From contig NZ_CP036425.1 of NCBI RefSeq assembly GCF_007747445.1, positions 2,650,175 to 2,714,174 on the forward strand: a stretch of DNA of 64,000 bases, in the 5' to 3' direction. Shown here piece after piece: positions 31,219 to 53,922 of the stretch. Each line of letters opens with the position of its first letter. Position 1 is the first letter of the stretch. The notes beneath the pieces were generated by a model, which worked only from the letters and a program-made list of their open reading frames with translations, made no database searches and had not been told where the DNA came from. The position numbers and the translations under genes were made by a program. Source of the DNA: Poriferisphaera corsica. Lineage in GTDB: Bacteria; Planctomycetota; Phycisphaerae; Phycisphaerales; Phycisphaeraceae.

Positions 31219-32295
31219 TTATACTGCCGCTTCTTGCTGCGACACACCAAACGAAACCACTTCACGCAAATACTCATATGCTGTCATTTCATTATGATCT
31301 GGCTCAATACAGATTTGACTATTTACATGCGTTACGTATTCTTCAAACATTCTTTTCACACCATACACTTCTTGCTGAGTCATACCATAGGTTGTTCCAA
31401 AAATCTGTGCTTTCGTTACACCTTTACCAAATAGTGTACGCAGATTATCTGGATGATAGGCAAACCCTAAAAATATAATCCTCTCAGCCTGAAGCATTTC
31501 ACTTCTCAAATTATCAACAAATGTCTCATCTTCATTTTTATCACCAATAATACGAATTCCATTACATGCACTTTGCAACCGGCTCACTTCTATATGATCG
31601 TTATAGGGCCAAACTCCGCTTGGGCCAACCACATCTGCAGTATGTAACCCTAAACAGCCATGCACATGTCTTATTCGAGAGGCTATAAGCGTATCTACAC
31701 CACTTTTGTTATTGCAGTAATTCATAATAACTTTACTGAAATACTGCTCTAATGACCTATCATAATTAAATGTTACAAAAAGTGGGCATTGACTTTCCAT
31801 AAAATATTTTACACTTTTTGCGCCCCCTAAATACCCTTGCATCTGCGACCAAATATATTTGTATACACTTGGACCCACATAGCTACTGTGTTCTTTATTT
31901 TGAAATTTTTGCCTCAAAAATAAATCCACCTCTTGTTCTGCCTTAATTAGTATGTGCGAAATTGCCGTCTTGCCAAGATCTTTAAAATGCTTGTTATTTC
32001 GCAAAAATGAATCTATTGAGTTGGTATCTGAATAATATATTCTTTCTCGAAATCGCTGAATTTCTTGATAATCAAAGCATAAAACTAGCAAAGCATCAAT
32101 TAAGCAATTCATTTCCAATTCAATATCATCATCACTTCTCCAATGCGACTTTACCCATTTGCCTTCGTGTAATTTGTATTCATATTCACTCTTCGCAAGT
32201 TCCTCACAAATATTATCCACCAACTCTGCCCCACTCGGAAACCCATACTGCATTGAAACACCAGCACCAAGTACAAAAACAGTCTTCTTTTGCAT
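31219..32295 (-). CDS. Solitary SIR2-like domain protein, candidate defence effector
   Basis: About 358 aa. The NAD-binding signature VFVLGAGVSMQYGFPSG is at residues 6-22. Further SIR2-like elements are PLFVTFNYDRSLEQYF, RHVHGCLG (catalytic-type His) and RIIFLGFAYHPDN. It lacks the zinc cysteines of protein deacetylases, so it belongs to the SIR2-like NADase group found in anti-phage systems. It is markedly AT-rich against the C-rich flanking genes, which suggests recent acquisition. The start at 32295 has AGGG 8 nt upstream; further in-frame starts lie at 32301 and 32310. No TIR, Argonaute or helicase partner gene is adjacent. Confidence 0.75.
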   Translation of the reverse strand: MQKKTVFVLGAGVSMQYGFPSGAELVDNICEELAKSEYEYKLHEGKWVKSHWRSDDDIELEMNCLIDALLVLCFDYQEIQRFRERIYYSDTNSIDSFLRNNKHFKDLGKTAISHILIKAEQEVDLFLRQKFQNKEHSSYVGPSVYKYIWSQMQGYLGGAKSVKYFMESQCPLFVTFNYDRSLEQYFSKVIMNYCNNKSGVDTLIASRIRHVHGCLGLHTADVVGPSGVWPYNDHIEVSRLQSACNGIRIIGDKNEDETFVDNLRSEMLQAERIIFLGFAYHPDNLRTLFGKGVTKAQIFGTTYGMTQQEVYGVKRMFEEYVTHVNSQICIEPDHNEMTAYEYLREVVSFGVSQQEAAV

Positions 32296-32406
32296 GTTCA
32301 TTGCCCTCATAAGATAAAAGAACAACTCAATTTTACTTGAGTTGCTCCATCTCACAAGCGCTTTTATATTCTCAACCACAACCTCACCACCCAGCACTTT
32401 CTAGCA

Positions 32407-37913: not shown

Positions 37914-37986
37914 GGGGCCTTAGCTCAGTTGGGAGAGCGACTGGTTTGCAACCAGTAGGTCAGCGGTTCGAGCCCGCTAGGCTCCA
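37914..37986 (+). tRNA. tRNA-Ala (anticodon UGC), phage integration-site candidate
   Basis: 73 nt, complete cloverleaf. The acceptor stem GGGGCCU/AGGCUCC includes the G3-U70 pair that marks alanine tRNAs. The anticodon loop TTTGCAA gives UGC, the T arm has GGTTCGAGCCC and the discriminator is A73. CCA is not encoded. The chromosomal gene style ends here and a phage begins directly downstream, so the 3' part is the likely attachment site. Confidence 0.97.
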
Positions 37987-37996
37987 TTAACATAAA

Positions 37997-38027
37997 CCTC
38001 TGAATCTAAACGATTTAGGGGTTTTTT
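37997..38027 (+). terminator. Terminator of tRNA-Ala
   Basis: A 10-bp stem with two G-T pairs (CCTCTGAATC at 37997-38006 with GATTTAGGGG at 38012-38021) is followed by six T. Confidence 0.85.
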
Positions 38028-38205: not shown

Positions 38206-38433
38206 ATGTCAGCGTGGACAAAACGAAACAACAAAATCAAGCCTGCCAGCTTCGCACGAAAAGCCAAGCCCGCTATCGGTTCGTCCGGTGGTGGGTCGCT
38301 TTTTGCGCGCCTAGGTAAGGGCTTGGAAGTTGCCTATTACTGGGGCGTGTTGGTGGCGGTTGGGGGTCTCGCATTCTTATTGGCAATTCTGGCGGCATTG
38401 GTTGGCGCTGGGTATCGAGGGTGTGAGAGATGA
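38206..38433 (+). CDS. Small phage membrane protein, unknown
   Basis: 75 aa. The basic N-terminal half (1-40, many Lys/Arg) is followed by one long hydrophobic segment (about 46-70). GAAGG lies about 9 nt before the ATG. Its stop overlaps the next gene's ATG by 4 nt. Function unknown. Confidence 0.6.
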   Translation: MSAWTKRNNKIKPASFARKAKPAIGSSGGGSLFARLGKGLEVAYYWGVLVAVGGLAFLLAILAALVGAGYRGCER

Positions 38434-38594
38434 GAAAGAGTGTCGGGTATATCAAAAGAGCCAGCAGCAATAAGTCTTGGTGCATTTCTAAACACAAGAT
38501 TGACCGATTTCGGCTTGAGATTGAAAGCTACATTCTGCGACGTGGCTACATGGTTGATGACATGATCGCAATTACTAGAGGGCCTAGAGTATGA
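38430..38594 (+). CDS. Very small basic phage protein
   Basis: 54 aa, basic, no recognisable domain. It overlaps both neighbours by 4 nt (ATGA junctions), which supports translational coupling and reality despite its size. Confidence 0.5.
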   Translation: MRKSVGYIKRASSNKSWCISKHKIDRFRLEIESYILRRGYMVDDMIAITRGPRV

Positions 38595-39517
38595 CCTACC
38601 CCCAACTACAAACAGCAAAGAACCCAAACGAAGTTATTACCGCTATATCAAACGGTAGCAATGCAAGTGTAGTTAAAGAGGATGGGTTGAAGCCTAATGA
38701 AGCAGTCCTTCACGTATCTACCACAGAGCGGTACAGAGTCAACGCCGATCCTGAAATTATGGTTGTGAATGAATCCGATGAGGGCATGGCAAGAATGGGA
38801 GTCACAAAGGCGCTCGAAGCGGTGAAGATGGCGGGTGAGAGAGGTAAGGTTAAGAGGGTCGCGAAACCAGCAAGCCCGGCCAAGGCGTCAAAGAAAACCC
38901 GCATCATCAAGCTCCACGGATTCAACGTCCACGATAAAGGCGCAGCTACCGTTGATATGCTCAACCCCTATCTAGCTGATTACGATTATCAGGATTTGGA
39001 TTATGGGTATTTCAACCTTAAAGATGTACGAATGAAAAACAGTACTGTGGCACTAGCGTTAGCAGTACAAACCAAGCAACCGAAACAGGATATATGGCTA
39101 GGGCACAGTAACGGGTGTGCAATAATATATGAAGCCTTGGAGCTTATGAGTGATGTGTCTGCCGTATCGCCAGAAATAGCCGAATATTTGCCATACCCTC
39201 AAGGCATCATCCTAATTAACCCTGCCCTAGACGCTGATATTGAATTCCCCGAAGGCAACTACTTCATTCACATCTACTACTCACCTTCGGATGACCCCGT
39301 CTGGTGGGCTAAATGGCTTTGGTGGCACAAATGGGGATCAATGGGGCGTGATGGCTACACGGGCAAACCAGACCCAAGAATCAATCAATTCAACGAAATG
39401 GATCTGCTGGCACGCAATATTGAACACTCGGATGTGTTTAAGCCCGGCATTGTTAAGCGATTCGCGCCGTTCCTTATTCACAACATCAAAACAGAGTTGG
39501 AAGCGAGCAAACCATGA
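38591..39517 (+). CDS. Phage alpha/beta hydrolase with intact triad
   Basis: 308 aa. A non-conserved N-terminal region (1-100) is rich in Lys/Ala near 85-102. A compact alpha/beta hydrolase follows: the oxyanion segment IIKLHGFNV, nucleophile elbow GHSNG (Ser173), an acid in SPSDDPVWW (Asp234 or Asp235) and a histidine in NIEHSDVF (His279). Family members are esterases, lipases or peptidases. In a phage, an esterase acting on the envelope for lysis, or on an exported lipid or polysaccharide, is possible. No signal peptide. It is next to a small lipoprotein gene, which favours a lysis link. Confidence 0.75.
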   Translation: MTYPQLQTAKNPNEVITAISNGSNASVVKEDGLKPNEAVLHVSTTERYRVNADPEIMVVNESDEGMARMGVTKALEAVKMAGERGKVKRVAKPASPAKASKKTRIIKLHGFNVHDKGAATVDMLNPYLADYDYQDLDYGYFNLKDVRMKNSTVALALAVQTKQPKQDIWLGHSNGCAIIYEALELMSDVSAVSPEIAEYLPYPQGIILINPALDADIEFPEGNYFIHIYYSPSDDPVWWAKWLWWHKWGSMGRDGYTGKPDPRINQFNEMDLLARNIEHSDVFKPGIVKRFAPFLIHNIKTELEASKP

Positions 39518-39732
39518 AACTCTTAGCTGTTGTATTTTCTATAGTTATGTTACTGACTGGTTGTGTACAGAAGAACCAAACCGTCAATATCAACCTGCCA
39601 GAAGGCATCAAGATCGTGCCGCCGTTGATGATTAACCAAAACGCTGAATACCTCAGCGATACGGATGTGCGAGATAACAACCCATCGGGTGAGTTTGATT
39701 TTATTCCTATGAACCGAAAGGTATCGAGATGA
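39514..39732 (+). CDS. Small phage lipoprotein (outer-spanin-like size)
   Basis: 72 aa. The signal peptide 1-16 ends in the lipobox LLTGC, with Cys17 as the lipidation site. The mature part is about 56 residues. Size and class fit an outer-membrane spanin subunit, but no clear inner-spanin partner lies beside it. It overlaps the hydrolase gene by 4 nt. Confidence 0.6.
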   Translation: MKLLAVVFSIVMLLTGCVQKNQTVNINLPEGIKIVPPLMINQNAEYLSDTDVRDNNPSGEFDFIPMNRKVSR

Positions 39733-40190
39733 GCAATTTGGTTGAACATGCAAAGAAAGAATTGAAACTGGCTGGGTATGCAGGCCCAGACGAGGAAGGC
39801 CCCAACGGATGGGCATATAAAAACATCATTGAGTTGATAGAGGTTTTTGCCAAACAAGGCCATAGCGGGTCTTCAGCCCCGTATGTTTCTGAGACATTCA
39901 GCAAACTTGCAGAATACGAACCATTAACCCCGCTAACTGGTGAAGACGACGAATGGAACGACATTAGCGCGTACTCGGATAATCCAAAGTGGCAAAACAA
40001 GCGAGACAGCCGTGTGTTTAAAGATAAAGGCGGCAACGCCTCATTTATCAAAGGCAAAGTATTTTTTGGTCCAGACGGAATTGGCTATACCAACTCAGAC
40101 AGCCATGTACCAGTTACCTTCCCCTTTACCCCAAAGACTGAATACATCAAGGTAGACGAGGAAGGCAACCCGCTAACAGAACAAAACTAG
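39729..40190 (+). CDS. Phage protein of unknown function
   Basis: 153 aa, soluble, mixed charge, not recognised. The N-terminal part (1-60) resembles small phage proteins with a helical start (EHAKKELKLAGY); the rest has no motif I can name. It overlaps the lipoprotein gene by 4 nt and is followed by a terminator. Confidence 0.6.
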   Translation: MSNLVEHAKKELKLAGYAGPDEEGPNGWAYKNIIELIEVFAKQGHSGSSAPYVSETFSKLAEYEPLTPLTGEDDEWNDISAYSDNPKWQNKRDSRVFKDKGGNASFIKGKVFFGPDGIGYTNSDSHVPVTFPFTPKTEYIKVDEEGNPLTEQN

Positions 40191-40202
40191 CCCACCCTGA
40201 CC

Positions 40203-40238
40203 ACCGCCCTGCTCTCTCTTGAGCAGGTGCGGTCTTTT
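40203..40238 (+). terminator. Terminator ending the first phage transcript block
   Basis: A 12-bp interrupted stem (ACCGC plus CCTGCTC at 40203-40214, with GAGCAGG and GCGGT at 40221-40233) is followed by CTTTT. Confidence 0.85.
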
Positions 40239-40261
40239 AATTCTACTGAGAGGTAGAGGTG

Positions 40262-40609
40262 ATGAACGAATCTACGGAAACCAGATGTACCACTCTGAAG
40301 GGCGCGCAGATACCCGAAGACTGGCAAGGCAAAGACAAACTTGTCGGTATTCAGTATTACCCATTCGTAACCAAGGACGGCGGCGTAGACGAGTCGCGTT
40401 CTGAAGTCATGACAATGCATCATTCAGAAAACGGGATTGCCGAAACAGCTTTCTACGTCCTGCCAATGGGCTACGCAGATGTTCACGCATTGAGTGTCTT
40501 GGGGATCTCACCTTTGGATAACGACAACTTTCACAATGCGGATCTCAAGGCGATGGGCGTGGTGAGAGAGGCTGGGAAGCACAAAAGAAAGGAAGAAGAA
40601 AATGAGTGA
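40262..40609 (+). CDS. Phage protein of unknown function
   Basis: 115 aa, soluble, with a central MTMHHSENGIAETAFYVLPMGYADVHAL and a basic C-terminus (KHKRKEEENE). Not recognised. AGAGGT motifs lie right before the ATG; a GTG one codon upstream is possible. Its end overlaps the next gene by 8 nt. Confidence 0.6.
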   Translation: MNESTETRCTTLKGAQIPEDWQGKDKLVGIQYYPFVTKDGGVDESRSEVMTMHHSENGIAETAFYVLPMGYADVHALSVLGISPLDNDNFHNADLKAMGVVREAGKHKRKEEENE

Positions 40610-40718
40610 CGAAGGAGTTGTCATTGTTGTGATTGCTGTTTTTTTGAATAGTCTTGGCATTGGTAGTCTTTTGGGATTAGGTGTGGATCAATCCCGTTGG
40701 CAAAACACGCGTTATTGA
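40602..40718 (+). CDS. Tiny phage membrane protein
   Basis: 38 aa, mostly one hydrophobic helix (residues 5-28). GAAGAAGAA precedes the ATG, which overlaps the previous gene. Compatible with a small inner-membrane phage protein; function unknown. Confidence 0.4.
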   Translation: MSDEGVVIVVIAVFLNSLGIGSLLGLGVDQSRWQNTRY

Positions 40719-40794
40719 ACGCGGCATCGCCGAGTACGACTCGCAGACAGGCGAATGGCAGTATAAGGCCGAGTATAGGTTGGAGGGCGAGTGA
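40681..40794 (+). CDS. Tiny phage protein, GTG start, overlapping
   Basis: 37 aa (VWINPVGKTRVIERG...), soluble, hydrophilic, in the +1 frame against the preceding tiny gene. It has to start at the GTG at 40681 because a TAG is directly upstream. GGGA lies 5 nt before it. Its stop shares an A with the next gene's ATG. The composition looks coding, but the size makes it tentative. Confidence 0.35.
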   Translation: MWINPVGKTRVIERGIAEYDSQTGEWQYKAEYRLEGE

Positions 40795-41102
40795 TGAATA
40801 ATCAAAGATACGAGCGGTACTATCACTGTTCCGAACACAACAGTTTTTTTTGGGATTGGTGTGAAGCACTAGAGAACCTTGGGTGCAAACTTCTCGGCCT
40901 CTATGGGAGTAATTTTTGCGAGGGTTACAGGCTCTATTGCGTTGTAGCGAACAATTCAGGCAACAGGTCAACTATCAAGATTGATTCTAGGAATAAAGAA
41001 TTGAAAGTATGTGCCGCCAAAATTCCATCATTTAGGGCTATGTCTCTTTACAACTATGTACGCCAATGGGTGGTACGCCAGCTGGAGGGGAAAGATGTTT
41101 AA
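40794..41102 (+). CDS. Phage protein of unknown function
   Basis: 102 aa, starts NNQRYERYYHCSEHNS, with several aromatic residues and three cysteines in the first 50 residues. Not recognised. GGAGGG lies 8 nt upstream. It overlaps the following gene by 8 nt. Confidence 0.55.
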   Translation: MNNQRYERYYHCSEHNSFFWDWCEALENLGCKLLGLYGSNFCEGYRLYCVVANNSGNRSTIKIDSRNKELKVCAAKIPSFRAMSLYNYVRQWVVRQLEGKDV

Positions 41103-41499
41103 TACGATTCACAAAGAAACGCATCACCATCACAACACCACCAATGTTGAGCAAGCAGGAGTTCATGACGCAGCACGCTTGTACCGTGATATGAAGGATG
41201 AAGTAGAAGCGAATGTGATGTGTCAAAAACTGATTGGGCAAGAAGCGCGTATAGCCATGTTTGAGTGTATGGATATTGGGCTAGAGTTAAAGATTTCATT
41301 TGGCATCAAACTCAACAATCAGTCTTTAGTTGGCCTAAGCAGTCTTGGACGATGTGAATATGAAATGATTAGAGGTGGGCTAAACAAGAGCGAAGAAGCC
41401 AAAAGGACAGTTGACCGCATTTTGAATGAGATAACAGAGCCGATTCGCGATGCTCTGCTGACCGAGTTAGTTGAGATGCTTGGGATAAAGGGGGAGTAA
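41095..41499 (+). CDS. Phage protein of unknown function, His-rich start
   Basis: 134 aa (FNTIHKETHHHH at the N-terminus). The rest is helical with charged residues, ending in a helix EITEPIRDALLTELVEML. Start chosen at 41095 because GGAGGGGA lies just upstream; longer in-frame starts lie inside the preceding gene. Function unknown. Confidence 0.6.
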   Translation: MFNTIHKETHHHHNTTNVEQAGVHDAARLYRDMKDEVEANVMCQKLIGQEARIAMFECMDIGLELKISFGIKLNNQSLVGLSSLGRCEYEMIRGGLNKSEEAKRTVDRILNEITEPIRDALLTELVEMLGIKGE

Positions 41500-41828
41500 T
41501 GGACAGCCTCTATAAGAAGCTTGGAGGGAAGGCTCCATATGTGATCGTACCGAATTGGCCTTGCCCAAAAACAGAGAATTTTATTAAAGAGTTGAGGTTG
41601 CGCGGAGAACGTAGTGGGAAAACAGATCAGTTGTACAAGCTCATGAAAGATTCCATGATCCCAAATAGCCAAGTAGCAATCGTTAAAGCAAATGGGGTTG
41701 TGATGATTGAATGCAACACACCACCAACCCCTCACTATTGGCAGAGATTTAAAGAATATATCCGCACATACAAATTAAGAATTAAGAGGGCGTGGCAAAT
41801 TTCAATAGGAGTAAACGATGACCTGTAG
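41499..41828 (+). CDS. Phage protein of unknown function
   Basis: 109 aa, basic, soluble, not recognised. GGGGGAG precedes the ATG, which shares one base with the previous stop. It overlaps the zinc-ribbon-like gene by 11 nt. Confidence 0.55.
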   Translation: MDSLYKKLGGKAPYVIVPNWPCPKTENFIKELRLRGERSGKTDQLYKLMKDSMIPNSQVAIVKANGVVMIECNTPPTPHYWQRFKEYIRTYKLRIKRAWQISIGVNDDL

Positions 41829-41946
41829 CAAATGCCGCTTCTGCGGAGAGAAATGTAAGGGTAACGAGAACCCTAAACCAACCTGCAAAGACTGTGAAGC
41901 ACGCAGGGAAGCAAACGAACGAGCAGAGAGGAACGCAGTTAAATGA
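41818..41946 (+). CDS. Very small Cys-rich (zinc-ribbon-like) phage protein
   Basis: 42 aa with cysteines in the pattern CSKCRFCGEKC followed by CKDC, compatible with one zinc ion, then a charged helix. ATAGGAG lies 6 nt upstream. Its stop overlaps the next ATG by 4 nt. Small zinc proteins of phages often bind host factors or DNA; here that is inference. Confidence 0.5.
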   Translation: MTCSKCRFCGEKCKGNENPKPTCKDCEARREANERAERNAVK

Positions 41947-42248
41947 TTAATTGTAAGTCCAAAACCAGATTCGGCGCAGTACATTTCAGGGAAGCCAGTG
42001 AAACCGTTTTGAGGGATATATGCGGTATCACAGATGGCCCCATTAGCGTTAGTTTTGACGACGATGGCTCACCGAAGCTGCACGTATCTACGGAATACAC
42101 GATGGAAGGAGTTGAGTTGGGGCAGGTTTTGGTTAGGGACTGGTGCAAATCCACGCTCGAAACAATGAGTTTAGATGATTTTGAGGCAAGGTTCGATCGT
42201 GAGAGTGAGGTAAAGAATGAGTATGTGGAACCGGATGCTCAAGGATAG
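41943..42248 (+). CDS. Phage protein of unknown function
   Basis: 101 aa, acidic toward the C-terminus, no domain recognised. Coupled by a 4-nt overlap to the zinc-ribbon-like gene and overlapping the next small membrane gene by 32 nt. Confidence 0.5.
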   Translation: MINCKSKTRFGAVHFREASETVLRDICGITDGPISVSFDDDGSPKLHVSTEYTMEGVELGQVLVRDWCKSTLETMSLDDFEARFDRESEVKNEYVEPDAQG

Positions 42249-42348
42249 TGAATACCCAGAACTGCCAGACTATCCAAAGATAGCTTTCTGGATGTGTGTG
42301 GCGGTTTTTCTGGTATGGGCGGGGTTTGGTTTTATGGTGATCTTTTAA
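42217..42348 (+). CDS. Tiny phage membrane protein
   Basis: 43 aa. A short polar start is followed by one hydrophobic helix (about 22-43) that runs to the C-terminus. It overlaps the preceding gene by 32 nt in another frame; GTGAGG lies upstream. Confidence 0.4.
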   Translation: MSMWNRMLKDSEYPELPDYPKIAFWMCVAVFLVWAGFGFMVIF

Positions 42349-42372
42349 ATGCGATAGGGATACAACAAGATA

Positions 42373-42636
42373 ATGGCTAAGTACAGAAAGAAACCAGTTG
42401 TCGTTGAGGCAGTGCGTTGTGCGGGAAGTGTAGAGTCCATTGCAGGATTTATTGGTGGTGCTGTTCTTACATTTGATATGCGAGAGGTGCTGCTAGAAAC
42501 GGCCAACGAAAAGCTTCGAGTACCAGCAGGCCATTATCTAGTGAAGGATATAGACGGATTAAAGGTAGTTCCTCCTGACATATTTGCCGCCACATACGAG
42601 AGGGTTGAAGACCCCATAGCAAAGGATGAAGGATGA
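42373..42636 (+). CDS. Conserved phage protein (KYRKKPVVVEAV family)
   Basis: 87 aa. The opening AKYRKKPVVVEAVR and the later VPAGHYLVKDIDGLKVVPPDIFAATYE match a small protein found in many tailed phages, whose function is not established. This supports the phage origin of the small-gene cluster. It overlaps the next gene by 4 nt. Confidence 0.75.
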   Translation: MAKYRKKPVVVEAVRCAGSVESIAGFIGGAVLTFDMREVLLETANEKLRVPAGHYLVKDIDGLKVVPPDIFAATYERVEDPIAKDEG

Positions 42637-42794
42637 GCGGAGCGCAAGCACAATTGGGTAGTGCTGCAAAGCAAGGCAAACCATCGAAGTATAGGCAATT
42701 TGTTAAACGCATGCATCGCCGGTGGTTTCGTAGGGAATGCAAACGTAACCCAGAGGGCGCGCCAACAAAGCGCATCTACAGGTACTACGACTAA
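42633..42794 (+). CDS. Very small basic phage protein
   Basis: 53 aa, strongly basic (Arg/Lys-rich, KRMHRRWFRRECKRN), ending in tyrosines. Nucleic-acid binding is plausible by charge alone. Coupled by a 4-nt overlap to the preceding gene. Confidence 0.5.
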   Translation: MSGAQAQLGSAAKQGKPSKYRQFVKRMHRRWFRRECKRNPEGAPTKRIYRYYD

Positions 42795-42821
42795 CCCCCA
42801 AGACAGATAGAGGATGATGAG

Positions 42822-42971
42822 ATGAGTGGATATGTGTGTTTGATTCTGTGTGTTTGTTGCTGGGTATCGTGGGGCTGCGTAGGCGATATTTATCCAGCAT
42901 ATGAAAACACAATATCAGCGCTTAATACATGTGGATGGTTTTTTCTTGTTGGTTGGTTGCTCAGCAACTAA
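42822..42971 (+). CDS. Very small Cys/Trp-rich membrane protein
   Basis: 49 aa, two hydrophobic segments (3-19 and 34-48) with six cysteines. AGGATGATGAG precedes the ATG. Function unknown; a small membrane toxin-like or lysis-related role cannot be excluded. Confidence 0.4.
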   Translation: MSGYVCLILCVCCWVSWGCVGDIYPAYENTISALNTCGWFFLVGWLLSN

Positions 42972-43217
42972 CCCCGCCTACACGGATCGCAAGCCTAGAC
43001 GACTTGCGAAAGGGGTAACTAGCTATCGCAATTGTATTTTTCGGCTTGTTTGGATTTCTTATTTTACGTTTCACTCGAAAAGTATATTAGCGCAATTTTA
43101 TGTGTCATATTTATCAAACTGAAGGATAGTTTCGCACACAAATACAAATTTCAGGTTGCAGAAATATCCAGTGAGAAAAAAACCCGCTCCAATATGGGGC
43201 AATCACAAGGAAAAGAA

Positions 43218-43577
43218 ATGTATTCAGATGGTAGTAGAGTAGTGAGACAGGTTGGCGAGAGAACGGCTGGTGGTGCGTATGCGAAGTATCAGATTGTGAA
43301 CTATGAAGTTCCAGATGGCGCAACGCCAGACGACAAGAGCGTTTTGGCTTTTATCCCATTCCAGCACGACGTGATCCCTAAAGTGGGCGTAGTAGGTGCT
43401 ACAAACGAATGCTTACTGGCAATCGTTATCGACCGACTTGAAGCATTTCAAAGCAATGGATTTGGGTGTGTGGAAAATGAGATTGCACTGAACGCCTGTA
43501 AGTCTGCGTTGAAAGTTCTTGAGTATCGCACAGAACTACGCAAGCAACGCAATGTTGAAGGTAAACACGAAAAGTGA
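43218..43577 (+). CDS. Acb2/Tad1-type cyclic-nucleotide sponge (anti-CBASS/anti-Thoeris)
   Basis: 119 aa. The C-terminal 70 residues carry the hallmark sequence of this phage family: IPFQHDVIPKVGVVGATNE, LLAIVIDRLEAFQS, then an ENEIALNACKSALKVLEYRT helix and a terminal VEGKHEK. Known members (Acb2, Tad1) form oligomers that bind cyclic di- and trinucleotides or cyclic-ADP-ribose signals and so silence CBASS or Thoeris defence. The first 45 residues are a separate, less conserved segment. AAGGAAAAG lies upstream of the ATG at 43218; the frame stays open further upstream without a good site. Which ligand it binds cannot be read from sequence. Confidence 0.85.
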   Translation: MYSDGSRVVRQVGERTAGGAYAKYQIVNYEVPDGATPDDKSVLAFIPFQHDVIPKVGVVGATNECLLAIVIDRLEAFQSNGFGCVENEIALNACKSALKVLEYRTELRKQRNVEGKHEK

Positions 43578-43649: not shown

Positions 43650-43739
43650 GGTAGGTCAAGCCAACAGCAGGCGATGGCAACTCACCGCTAATGAGTCGAG
43701 GCTTAACCGTCCTTGCAGGTTCGACCCCTGCACCTACCG
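43650..43739 (+). tRNA. Phage tRNA-Ser (anticodon GCU)
   Basis: 90 nt. The acceptor stem GGTAGGT/ACCTACC is perfect and the D stem is GCC/GGC. The anticodon stem ACTCA/TGAGT has loop CCGCTAA, giving GCU. The long variable arm (GAGG/CCTT) is typical of class II tRNAs. The T arm GCAGG-TTCGACC-CCTGC is perfect and the discriminator is G73 as in serine tRNAs. Oddities: C instead of U at position 33, C instead of U at position 8, and three bases between acceptor and D stem. CCA is not encoded. Confidence 0.8.
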
Positions 43740-43751
43740 CTTTTGAAAACC

Positions 43752-43827: not shown

Positions 43828-45174
43828 ATGGGCAGCTTTAAACACAAATGGACGCACGATATGGATGCGGTGTTGTTGCGCATGAAATCCCAAAAGAAAA
43901 ACTTCGGTGAAATTTCCAGAGAGCTATCGAACAAGCTTGGTGTAGACCTAAATCGGAAACACACACTCGCTCGATTTGAATATCTTAAAAGGCAGTCTAA
44001 CAAAGAAGCGGCCACCGCATCTGATGCAGAATACGCTACTCTCCCCGAAACTACCGAATTTAGTCGGTTCGTCTACATTGACTCGCCGGAAGCGATCAAG
44101 AATCCAAACGAATTGCTCTCACGCGCCGATATTGACCTTGATCCCAATGAATATGAGATCACCAAAGTCAATCCCAAGGCGTGGACTACCACGATGAAAA
44201 GTGAGGATGGTGGCCCGCCCCTCCAAGTCCAGAACTACGGCGTACAGATCGACATTAGGCGCATACCGCCAACTGATCCAAGAGCGATGAAGCAGGCAAT
44301 TATCGATGAAATCAAGGCCAACACATCCAAGCCCCAAAAGATCAAACGCAAGCCCATACCCAATCACGCAACCGGCCACATGCTCGAAATCTGCGTCTTT
44401 GACCTGCACCTCGGCAAGTACGCATGGAAGCCCGAAACCGGCCAAAACTACGACATCACAATCGCCAAGCAACTCTTTGAGCATACACTCAACCAGATCA
44501 TTGAACGCTCAAAAGTCCATCCCGTCTCACGCATCCTGTTTCCAGTCGGCAACGACCTCATCCACATCGACAACCCTGACAACACCACAACCAGAGGCAC
44601 GCGGCAAGATGTAGACACACGCTACATGCACATTATCAAAGAAACACGCCAACTCATCGTCAAGGCTATCAATACCCTCCGCGAAATCGCCCCCGTCTAC
44701 GTTCCCATCATCCCCGGTAATCACGACAAAATCACGGTCATGAACCTTGGCGATACGCTAGAAGCGCTGTTTGAACATCACGAAGACGTATATATCGATA
44801 ACACACCCTCTCCTCGCAAGTACCACACTTGGGAGGATGTTTTGATTGGGTTTGTGCATGGCGACAGGAGAACAGAGATCAACAAGCTTCCTTTGCTGAT
44901 GGCGAACGAAGCAAGGGAGCAGTGGTCAACAGCACGGTTTACCGAGTGGCACTGCGGCCACCTGCACACACGCAAAGCGGTTGAGCATGTGACGTGCGAC
45001 TCTCATAACGGTGTTGTTGTAAGAACGATGGATTCATTGTCGGGAACCGACAATTGGCACGCTGAGGAAGGATATATCGGTGGGGCGAGAGCAGCTAACG
45101 CGCTGGTCTGGCACCCGAAACATGGATGTGTTGCCGAATACATCGCTCACGCGCCGGAGGAAGCGTATGCCTAA
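43828..45174 (+). CDS. Phage metallophosphoesterase with N-terminal HTH-like domain
   Basis: 448 aa. A SANT/Myb-like helix-rich domain (about 5-55) precedes a linker and a calcineurin-type catalytic core: FDLHLGK (Asp192, His194), VGNDLIHID (241-243), PGNHD (297-300), VHGD (344-346) and CGHLH (377-380). All metal ligands are present. SbcD/Mre11-like nucleases and other phosphoesterases share this core; a DNA-directed activity is suggested by the HTH part but unproven. The gene lies directly after the tRNA-Ser and overlaps the next gene by 8 nt. Confidence 0.8.
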   Translation: MGSFKHKWTHDMDAVLLRMKSQKKNFGEISRELSNKLGVDLNRKHTLARFEYLKRQSNKEAATASDAEYATLPETTEFSRFVYIDSPEAIKNPNELLSRADIDLDPNEYEITKVNPKAWTTTMKSEDGGPPLQVQNYGVQIDIRRIPPTDPRAMKQAIIDEIKANTSKPQKIKRKPIPNHATGHMLEICVFDLHLGKYAWKPETGQNYDITIAKQLFEHTLNQIIERSKVHPVSRILFPVGNDLIHIDNPDNTTTRGTRQDVDTRYMHIIKETRQLIVKAINTLREIAPVYVPIIPGNHDKITVMNLGDTLEALFEHHEDVYIDNTPSPRKYHTWEDVLIGFVHGDRRTEINKLPLLMANEAREQWSTARFTEWHCGHLHTRKAVEHVTCDSHNGVVVRTMDSLSGTDNWHAEEGYIGGARAANALVWHPKHGCVAEYIAHAPEEAYA

Positions 45175-49050: not shown

Positions 49051-50688
49051 ATGGTATCACTTGCTGACTTCAACCAACCCGTCACTCACCCAATACACGA
49101 ACTACATGATCGTGTCCGCTATGAACTTGCCTTATTCGAGGAAACAGGTCAATGCAGCGAAGGGATTACGCCTCGTTGGATCAAAGATGCCACGGCACAG
49201 TTAGCAAACAATCAGCTTGAATTGCTGTTTCGCCCATCACGCAAACCGGGTGAGGAAAATGGGCAGAGGTATACGGGAGCTGGATCTAAACAGCTTCAAA
49301 TGAAGCTGGACTGGGAAGCCAAAGAGCGATTCATTGCAGCCGGTGGCGCTAACCGATCCGGCAAAACGCAAGGTATCGGTGGGATCGTCTGCCTTGAAAT
49401 CCTGCATAACCTCAAGGACGGTGATATCATCTGGGTTATCGCGCAGGACTGGGACATGATGAACGCCGTCCCGCAGAAATTCCTATGGGATTTTCTACCT
49501 CGCTCAATGTTTCCTGATAGTCTTGAGTACAAAGATGAATGTGGGTTCGGTAAACAGCGTTCTAGCATCACGCTCACGCTCCCTAATAATCGCGGCAAGG
49601 TTATCGTTCGATTCAAGAACGAAAAGATGGATCTCAATAAATACGAGTCAGAGCCAGTCGCTTTGATCTGGTACACCGAACCATCCAAAGAACAGATCTT
49701 TGACGCAATACAAACACGATTGGTTGATAAGGCTGGCAAGCTCTATATTGACTACCTTCCTCGCTTTGGGTGGCTGAAATACAAAGTGCGCTTAAGCGGG
49801 GATTTCAAGGTTTATCAGGTGGGCATGGCCGACAACGCCCACAATCTGCCTGATGGCGAAATCGATAAAGTCATCAAGCGGTACAAGAACGAGCCCGCTG
49901 AGGTCGCAGTCCGCGTCTACGGTAAAGAAGCCAGTGCGTTTGGCACCGTTTTCCCTCAATTCCAAGCGAATCTTGATGGCCATATTTGCAAACGCTTCCC
50001 ACTACCGAAAGAAGCTAAACGCGCATTGTATCGATGTTATGACTACGGATTCAGAAACCCCTCGGCTTGCTTGTGGGCTTCTCTACTACCTGCTGGGTTT
50101 AAATTTCCGTCTGGCGTTGGTTCGGTATGGGATGGCAAGGAGTTAGATTGCGAAGTGCTTTTGATCTATCGCGAATACTACAAGACAGGTCAAACACTCT
50201 CGCAACAGGCTAATGAAATCATTGCCATGTCCGGCAACAATAAAGTATTGGAACGCACCTATCAAAACATCTCATATTATCGTGAGGTCTTTGAGCGCGA
50301 GCATTTCAGAATGGACATGGTTTCCGACCCTTCTATCTTCAACACAGACCAAGCAGAAAAGGGGGAGTCCAAAGCAGCGATACTTGACAGGAATGGGCTT
50401 AGAGCCAAGAGAGGTAAACGCGCCAATGCTTCAGATGGTGCTTCGTTGGTGGCAAAAGTCAGACTCTGGTTTGAGGATAACAAAATCGTGTTCTTTGAAG
50501 ATTGCGAGAATGCAATACGTGAACATGAAATCTGGAGACACAAAGAAAACTCGAATGGTGAGGCTCCAAGTAATGAGCCTTATGAGGATCGAAATAATCA
50601 CACCTGCGATGCGCTCAAAGAGTTGGTGGCCGAGCAATTGGTCTATCACCAGCCGAGAGGACGTATTGTAGACATACCATTGGATTGA
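49051..50688 (+). CDS. Terminase large subunit
   Basis: 545 aa. The packaging ATPase has Walker A GGANRSGKT at 98-106. The nuclease part starts near 315, with CYDYGFRNPSACLW holding a metal-binding Asp, and continues to about 520. It translocates and cuts phage DNA into proheads through the portal. No strong ribosome site precedes the ATG, which suggests coupling to the upstream gene ending 6 nt before it. Confidence 0.9.
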   Translation: MVSLADFNQPVTHPIHELHDRVRYELALFEETGQCSEGITPRWIKDATAQLANNQLELLFRPSRKPGEENGQRYTGAGSKQLQMKLDWEAKERFIAAGGANRSGKTQGIGGIVCLEILHNLKDGDIIWVIAQDWDMMNAVPQKFLWDFLPRSMFPDSLEYKDECGFGKQRSSITLTLPNNRGKVIVRFKNEKMDLNKYESEPVALIWYTEPSKEQIFDAIQTRLVDKAGKLYIDYLPRFGWLKYKVRLSGDFKVYQVGMADNAHNLPDGEIDKVIKRYKNEPAEVAVRVYGKEASAFGTVFPQFQANLDGHICKRFPLPKEAKRALYRCYDYGFRNPSACLWASLLPAGFKFPSGVGSVWDGKELDCEVLLIYREYYKTGQTLSQQANEIIAMSGNNKVLERTYQNISYYREVFEREHFRMDMVSDPSIFNTDQAEKGESKAAILDRNGLRAKRGKRANASDGASLVAKVRLWFEDNKIVFFEDCENAIREHEIWRHKENSNGEAPSNEPYEDRNNHTCDALKELVAEQLVYHQPRGRIVDIPLD

Positions 50689-51810: not shown

Positions 51811-53922
51811 ATGTTTGGCTTCAATCCAAAAAAAGAAAAAGAGAATGAGCTACGCCGTAAGCGCCACAAAACCGCGATGATGGTCAAGGATCTTGTGTCT
51901 GAATCTCGCTCCAAACTGGGCGATCAGATTACGCCGCAATCCACAATTGGCGACCAATTCACCGCCAATATGCGGGCATTTCTAGGCGATATGTGGACGA
52001 CCAAAGCGAGAGAAGGTATCCATCGCATGACCCTTAATATGACGGGCAATGCGATCATGGCGATGTCGGCTATTCAGTCCGACCAATCATACCGCCCGTC
52101 AGTTGAACCCGTTGAGATCAAGAGCGGCGATTCTCCTGTTTATCTCTCACCAAAAGCTGCAAGAATCATCACCAAACACATCGAAAGAAATGAATTGATT
52201 CTTGATGAATCGATTACGGATGATCAACTCAACTCCTCAGCACCCCTATCACAGAACCAATTAGAAGCGATTGAACCACTGACCGAGCCTTGGGTATCAG
52301 GTAGCAATATGGCGATGCCAGCCTCACTTGAACCAGAGGATCTGATCGAAGTTTCTGACGTTTTCCTAGCCAAGCAAATCCAGCAGCGATTTAACATCAT
52401 GTGGGATCGCGCAATCGGTGATTTCCATCTAGCCGAACACGATTTGTACAAGAACATCTTTGGTCATTGCCCAATCGGTATTGAGTACGATGAAGAATCC
52501 AACAGTGTCAAGTTGTTTAATGCGAACGTGTTGGACGTACATATCGACCCAACTTGTACAAAAATCGAAGATGCTGCTTATGTTATTTTCGATCAATATG
52601 TCCCGATTGAAACCGCAATCAAGCAATATCCTAAGTACAAGGATCAGATTAAGAAGGCGGCTGACAACGGAAAATTCACGCGGTCTTCACGGTCTTCAGA
52701 TGAACACGGCACTGCGAGCGCTATGGGCTATAGCTCGGTAGATTTCAAGCGAGATATGGTCACAATTCGCCGCGCATGGCTACGCGATCACCAATACCCT
52801 CTGCCAGAGGACGAAGTCGGCGGATCGCAATTTAACATCATTGAACGCAGTGCAAAGAAAATCGGTACGACACTTATTGAAACTGATGGCTACGAGCTAG
52901 TGACGGAGCGAAATGATAGTGGCGAGATCGTTGAAACAAGCGAAATTGAATACGGTGATAAAGATTGGCCTGTGTTAAATGGTATTCGTCAGCTCGAAAT
53001 CATTGCCGAGATTGACGAAGTTGTCAGTGACAGTCCCTGCCCTTACAGCGACATTCCTTGGGGATGGTCAGTTAGCTGGCCCATACCATACTGCCCATAC
53101 GGCATGGGCGAACCGCTTCGCACTCAAGACCTTTCAGAATACATCAACCGTCTTGGCACAATCATTATCACGATTGCTCATTACTCACAGTATCCAGAAA
53201 CGATCATGCCGGACGAATTGCTCGATCACTTGCAGAAGATGGCCGGTGACAAGGGTGTGATGTCAAGGCCGGGTCGCATCAACGGCATACCATCCAACGT
53301 TTGGGATCGTTTTGTCGGACAAAACGGTACAACACCAATCCTCAAGCTTGAGCGTGATCAACTTCCCGCTGATCTTCTGAACTTCTTCTTTAAATTGGTA
53401 GAACTGCACAGCGAGCTTTCAGGCAATGTCGATGTTCTGCAAGGACAAGCCCCCACCAACAATGCATCCGCAAAGCTAACTGAAAATTTGGGTACGGTTG
53501 CGCGTGGGCCTATCAAATACAAAGCTTTCCAAACGGAATTCACTATACGCCGCCTTGGTCGTTTGATTATTGATGCGATGGTTAAGTTTATGCCGCCGCA
53601 CATCTGGGATCAGATGGGTGATGAATACCCGCCTGTTGTGATGGACGCGATCAGACGTGGTGCCAAGTCACTCAAATACGATATATCCGTTGAACTTCAA
53701 GCTGGTAAGGGCGCATCAAAAATAGCTCGTGCGGAAAAAGCACGCTTCGATTTTGGTGCAGGGCTAATCGATCGTGTTACCGCGCTCGAGGAAACAGGCA
53801 GAAATGCGGAGAAGATCGAACGGCGGTTTAAAGAACAACAAGAAGCCAGTGCTGCGGAAACGCAACAGATGGCGCTTCCTTTTAATCAAAGCCCTGCGCA
53901 GGGTGTTCCTGCTCAGGCGTAA
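51811..53922 (+). CDS. Portal protein, P22-like size
   Basis: 703 aa, the length of P22-type portals (725). Typical features: a polar helical start with MVKDLVSESRSKLG, DVHIDPTCTKIEDAAYVIFD followed by ETAIKQYPKYKDQIKKA, a central CPYSDIPWGWSVSWPIPYCPYG-type region and a late helical NVDVLQGQAPTNNASA segment. It forms the ring at the head vertex through which DNA passes. The C-terminus is Gln/Glu-rich. Position after terminase and before scaffold agrees. Confidence 0.85.
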   Translation: MFGFNPKKEKENELRRKRHKTAMMVKDLVSESRSKLGDQITPQSTIGDQFTANMRAFLGDMWTTKAREGIHRMTLNMTGNAIMAMSAIQSDQSYRPSVEPVEIKSGDSPVYLSPKAARIITKHIERNELILDESITDDQLNSSAPLSQNQLEAIEPLTEPWVSGSNMAMPASLEPEDLIEVSDVFLAKQIQQRFNIMWDRAIGDFHLAEHDLYKNIFGHCPIGIEYDEESNSVKLFNANVLDVHIDPTCTKIEDAAYVIFDQYVPIETAIKQYPKYKDQIKKAADNGKFTRSSRSSDEHGTASAMGYSSVDFKRDMVTIRRAWLRDHQYPLPEDEVGGSQFNIIERSAKKIGTTLIETDGYELVTERNDSGEIVETSEIEYGDKDWPVLNGIRQLEIIAEIDEVVSDSPCPYSDIPWGWSVSWPIPYCPYGMGEPLRTQDLSEYINRLGTIIITIAHYSQYPETIMPDELLDHLQKMAGDKGVMSRPGRINGIPSNVWDRFVGQNGTTPILKLERDQLPADLLNFFFKLVELHSELSGNVDVLQGQAPTNNASAKLTENLGTVARGPIKYKAFQTEFTIRRLGRLIIDAMVKFMPPHIWDQMGDEYPPVVMDAIRRGAKSLKYDISVELQAGKGASKIARAEKARFDFGAGLIDRVTALEETGRNAEKIERRFKEQQEASAAETQQMALPFNQSPAQGVPAQA

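Follow-up and report, generated by a model that had tools for sequence, protein, structure and literature searches.

The open reading frame at positions 43218-43577 is a genuine, full-length member of the Tad1 family, and we consider it likely that this is the tad1 gene of a temperate phage of 60 kb that has inserted into a tRNA-Ala gene, that its product acts as a hexameric signal sponge, and that Tad3, encoded in the same prophage, serves as a second inhibitor of Thoeris. The stretch of DNA that was analysed, here called the window, is 64,000 nucleotides long and corresponds to positions 2650175-2714174 of the single 4,291,168-bp contig of Poriferisphaera corsica. This host belongs to the class Phycisphaerae, in agreement with a first-pass annotation, made from the letters alone, that had placed the gene in a planctomycete. 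The features needed for the argument are given below in window coordinates.

37914-37986, + strand: tRNA-Ala (TGC), the integration target (ARAGORN)
37944-38005, + strand: attL core, a 62-bp exact direct repeat beginning inside the tRNA-Ala gene
38206-43577, + strand: left-end accessory region, with tad3, tad1 and several short genes without a family match
39729-40190, + strand: tad3, encoding a 153-aa protein of PF25185, "Type I Thoeris inhibitor Tad3" (PF25185, 9b7d)
43206-43217, + strand: probable ribosome-binding site of tad1, AAGGAAAAGAA ahead of the ATG (sequence)
43218-43577, + strand: tad1, encoding a 119-aa Tad1-family protein (phrog_2428, PDB Tad1 chains, AlphaFold2 model)
43650-43740, + strand: prophage tRNA-Ser (GCT), directly 3' of tad1 (ARAGORN)
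43828-45174, + strand: phage DNA repair exonuclease (phrog_704, E=1.2e-73)
49051-50688, + strand: terminase large subunit (phrog_2, E=3.6e-12)
51811-53922, + strand: portal protein (phrog_156, E=1.4e-6)

The tad1 reading frame is intact. Its ATG at 43218 is preceded by a purine-rich ribosome-binding site, AAGGAAAAGAAATG, and relatives agree with this start: the N-terminus of L099 is MYSDGDRIVQQMGERT, and L100 has MYSDGNRIVQQAGERT. A longer start at TTG 43032, an upstream extension given by the ORF tool, was rejected because both the ribosome-binding site and the relatives favour 43218. All of the motifs picked out in the first-pass annotation (IPFQ, VGVVGATNE, LLAIVIDRLEAFQ and VEGKHEK) are present in the reading frame, and its family assignment was borne out by profile, sequence and fold matches. 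The profile phrog_2428 matches residues 9-119 with E=2.4e-24, and the solved Tad1 chains are found by phmmer with E values from 6e-9 (8kbb) through 8.5e-8 (7uav, 7uaw and 8smd) to 1.2e-7. The top PDB sequence match in phmmer is gp184 (8y6v), at E=1.7e-14. The Tad1 of phage SBSphiJ7, annotated as such in its record, aligns end to end with the P. corsica protein at about 34% identity, and similar sequences occur in 131 annotated phage records and in 224 stretches of viral contigs. Residues F48, Q49, G60, E64, R73, F77, Q78, N87, R104, T105, R108 and V113 are kept in all 38 sequences aligned, that of P. corsica included. Judged by these comparisons, the sequence similarity to Tad1 is well above chance. 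Such relatives were found through alignments, which were needed because peptide patterns drawn from the single P. corsica protein returned nothing from viral or genome contigs; there was also no phage DNA near-identical to that of this prophage.

A profile search of the Acb2/Tad1 families, proposed at the outset as a check, succeeded in one part and failed in another: the Tad1 family phrog_2428 was hit, whereas PF24729, the Pfam family shared by Acb2 and Tad1, gave no match. Pfam as a whole (at E<=1), NCBIfam and PADLOC likewise gave no match. PF24729 matches two Tad1 controls (1e-8) and misses the protein of Rhizobium phage IC12, which is clearly a Tad1 homologue, and because that homologue is missed too, we regard the failure as a shortfall of the model.

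An AlphaFold2 monomer model, built from 38 natural sequences, reached a pLDDT of 86.9. It has strands at residues 7-15, 21-28 and 42-47 and helices at 63-79 and 85-111, that is, an antiparallel beta-sheet at the N-terminus and then two long helices, as in Tad1. Every one of the 20 best Foldseek matches of the model was a Tad1 chain, some of them in complex with 1''-3' gcADPR, cA3 or cAAG, and the first unrelated fold appeared at E=0.23; in VIA-align, Tad1 structures gave Z scores of 11-12 and any other fold 7.1 or less. The first 45 residues had been described as extra and less conserved. They are less conserved, but in the alignment they correspond to the beta-strands at the Tad1 N-terminus, and since residues 1-47 form the three strands of Tad1's own beta-domain, they are not an addition to the family fold.

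The prophage setting, which had been called probable, was confirmed. The second copy of the 62-bp repeat (attR) lies beyond the window at genome position 2748127, 60,009 bp from attL, with a phage integrase gene adjoining it, and the element between the repeats also carries DnaB, SSB, terminase and portal genes. This 60.0-kb element in the tRNA-Ala gene is a complete-looking temperate prophage, and tad1 sits 5.2 kb in from its left end, immediately ahead of tRNA-Ser.

The same prophage carries, 3.0 kb upstream of tad1, the gene tad3, whose product is unrelated to Tad1; the first-pass annotation had overlooked this gene, as it had the loop changes discussed below. The Tad3 protein matches PF25185 with E=3.7e-43 (146.5 bits, against a cut-off of 27), and the solved Tad3 structure 9b7d is matched at E=5.2e-11; inhibition of type I Thoeris by this protein is predicted, the function being taken from the name of the Pfam family. 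Among 392 genomes drawn from the phylum, Tad3 was found only in the present one and Tad1 (phrog_2428) in seven, and with both genes here within 3.0 kb of each other, we think the pairing unlikely to be accidental. The two genes are also about 3.2 kb apart in a Crocinitomicaceae MAG (Bacteroidota; L107), and a search of 13 further genomes or records with Tad1 found no Tad3. By a route different from that of Tad1, Tad3 would interfere with Thoeris as well, and the left end of the prophage can therefore be read as a putative anti-Thoeris island.

The sponge function first proposed for the gene is supported by its membership in the Tad1 family, from which we infer its assembly, ligands and mode of action. 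Following the sponge mechanism and the two types of pocket described for Tad1 (review PMC12043709), the P. corsica protein would most likely form a hexamer built as a trimer of dimers, like other Tad1 proteins. Alarm nucleotides would be captured by this hexamer and kept intact: the glycocyclic ADP-ribose that Thoeris TIR enzymes produce would sit in pockets formed by pairs of protomers, and the cyclic di- or trinucleotides of CBASS would also be bound, the trinucleotides on the trimer faces. The death effectors of Thoeris and CBASS would in this way be kept silent while the phage replicates.

The host itself gave no match to the SMODS, TIR_2 and ThsB_TIR models searched, and among 61 related genomes TIR_2 was above cut-off in 19 and SMODS in five. 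Since the host has no TIR or SMODS match, the presumed use of Tad1 and Tad3 is in the infection of other strains in which such systems are present, as they are in relatives from the order. A host SIR2-like gene at 31219-32397 (- strand), just outside the prophage, matches ThsA weakly (PADLOC, E=2.8e-6) and SIR2_2 below the cut-off. It was set aside as a ThsA candidate because it had only these weak matches, had no TIR partner with the models tried and lies outside the prophage.

In a maximum likelihood tree, P. corsica Tad1 forms one clade, made up largely of Phycisphaerae sequences, with L101, L100, L099, L019, L085 and L108 (support 97/91), within a Tad1 tree whose long branches leave the inner branching order unsure. 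L099, L100 and L101 are sequences from Phycisphaerae MAGs and L019 is from a viral contig; identity to the P. corsica protein is 51-54% for L019, L099 and L100 and 42% for L101, and most of the four begin with the same MYSDG/GERT N-terminus. The three MAG genes adjoin phage genes: next to L101 are genes for a terminase, a methyltransferase and a DnaB helicase, next to L100 is a gene with a weak tape-measure match, and the neighbour of L099 is a very long gene that matches phage families. In contrast to the window locus, these four have unrelated neighbour genes and no Tad3 nearby.

What sets the clade apart is the absence of H22, G51 and N59 from all seven members (L108 has a gap at position 51), the P. 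corsica protein having A22, D51 and V59 instead. Outside the clade, 29 Tad1 sequences keep H22 in 27 cases, G51 in every case and N59 in 28. The helix residues F77, Q78, N87, R104 and R108, invariant in the 38 sequences, are unaltered in the clade. The three loop residues do not define membership of the family, because CbTad1, which binds ligand and has a solved structure, carries H at position 59, and gp184 has K at position 22; G51 is unbroken outside the clade. The changes fall in loops of the kind described as pocket-forming (review PMC12043709), and binding of the standard ligands by P. corsica Tad1 is therefore not assured. Loss of these residues with the helix residues kept suggests, but does not prove, an altered ligand preference, and by sequence the changes sit where specificity could shift. 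It is possible, though we hold the idea only tentatively, that Tad1 of the Phycisphaerae clade has a remodelled gcADPR/dinucleotide pocket and sequesters some other signal, another cADPR isomer or a cyclic oligonucleotide, perhaps with only the trinucleotide site kept. The clade-wide loss of otherwise near-invariant residues and the retention of R104 and R108 argue for such remodelling; the deviations of CbTad1 and gp184 at two of the same positions, and the uncertain alignment of the clade's FQ-loop, argue for caution. We think it decidedly unlikely that this phage lineage, with its pocket rebuilt, captures an alarm nucleotide other than gcADPR and so points to an undescribed Thoeris- or CBASS-like signal of planctomycetes, attacked at two levels by Tad1 and Tad3.

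CbTad1, from a Clostridium botulinum prophage (7uav, 7uaw, 8smd, 8kbe, 8kbf), shares the full-length fold with the P. corsica protein (VIA Z 11.6 over 113 residues) at about 31% identity, and has in common with it the GGAY beta-strand, the FQ...EN helical hairpin and the C-terminal tail. CbTad1 comes from another host lineage, and in the P. corsica protein its H22 is replaced by A, its G51 by D, and the H at its N59 position by V. The Tad1 of Bacillus phage SBSphiJ7 and CmTad1 (8kbb-8kbd) have the same domain order, the invariant F, Q, N, R and R and the VEG tail; at 34% identity, the P. corsica protein differs from them in lacking RENA as well as the conserved H, G and N of the loops. The third comparison is with gp184 (230 aa) and its homologues in Pseudomonas giant phages, which share the VGVxG and TADCLL/TNECLL motifs and a C-terminal Tad1 domain. 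In gp184 this domain stands behind a long N-terminal extension, whereas the P. corsica protein is a lone Tad1 domain.

That gp184 should be the best PDB sequence match raises the thought that the prophage carries a decayed or repurposed Tad1 fold that no longer binds a signal, for instance a virion component, a thought to which the three lost loop residues and the lack of a match to the target-system models in the host would also lend themselves. We consider this improbable. A ribosome-binding site precedes the unbroken reading frame, at least 12 family-invariant residues are kept, and the gene, which lacks the gp184 extension, is placed among accessory genes near tad3 and outside the structural cluster. 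Moreover, a Tad1 encoded by orf184 is reported to occur naturally in phages that resist CBASS (review PMC12043709).

The first-pass annotation had filed the gene under a joint Acb2/Tad1 heading; the protein is Tad1, not Acb2. That it could be a short, helix-only Acb2-type anti-CBASS sponge is very improbable indeed and is already disfavoured by the full-length Tad1 match, for although Acb2 shares the signal-sponge principle and a C-terminal helical hairpin of the type that Pfam joins under PF24729, it is a protein of about 94 aa lacking the N-terminal beta-domain of Tad1 (review PMC12043709), whereas the P. corsica protein has three N-terminal strands in its model, no match to PF24729, no sequence match to any Acb2 chain and no Acb2 among the fold matches listed.

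Tad1 is a known and widespread family, and the added interest of the present case comes from its Tad3 neighbour and from the clade-specific loop changes. The suggestion that the class was new to planctomycete phages did not stand: the gene is not unique, because relatives at 42-54% identity are present in Phycisphaerae MAGs among other public genomes, and the family occurs in the seven genomes of the phylum mentioned above. We found no paper on Tad1 in planctomycetes, in a literature search that did not reach the two primary Tad1 papers. With this finding, a well-studied form of counter-defence is extended to a phylum whose phage biology is sparse, and the joint presence of Tad1 and Tad3 in a single prophage suggests that Thoeris-like immunity is of importance to the Phycisphaerae. 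The clade-wide loss of three loop residues offers a concrete, inexpensive way to test the evolution of ligand specificity in Tad1, and as the host is apparently a cultured type strain (P. corsica KS4), the finding is open to experiment. One Phycisphaerae MAG, IP29b_bin.106, holds two different tad1 genes (L099 and L100) on two contigs, each amid probable phage genes.

Among the other genes of the prophage left end, that at 42373-42636 has its match in a phage family whose function is unknown, and those at 38591-39517, 40259-40609, 40791-41102, 41499-41828 and 41943-42248 had no convincing match in the libraries tried. None of the short genes other than tad3 and tad1 matched a known anti-defence family; given their neighbours, those without a match (window positions 38591-43000) are candidates for further anti-defence genes. 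The right arm of the prophage carries a tRNA-Trp (CCA; L010, 4216-4290). Past attR, host sequence at genome positions 2748127-2748309 is similar to the prophage's left end, at 84% over a stretch of 184 bp that contains a GGTATACT...TTATTCGGGT block. At 2753614-2753675, 5.5 kb beyond this, the att core occurs for a third time, in weaker form. Together these suggest that an earlier or tandem integration took place at this same tRNA.
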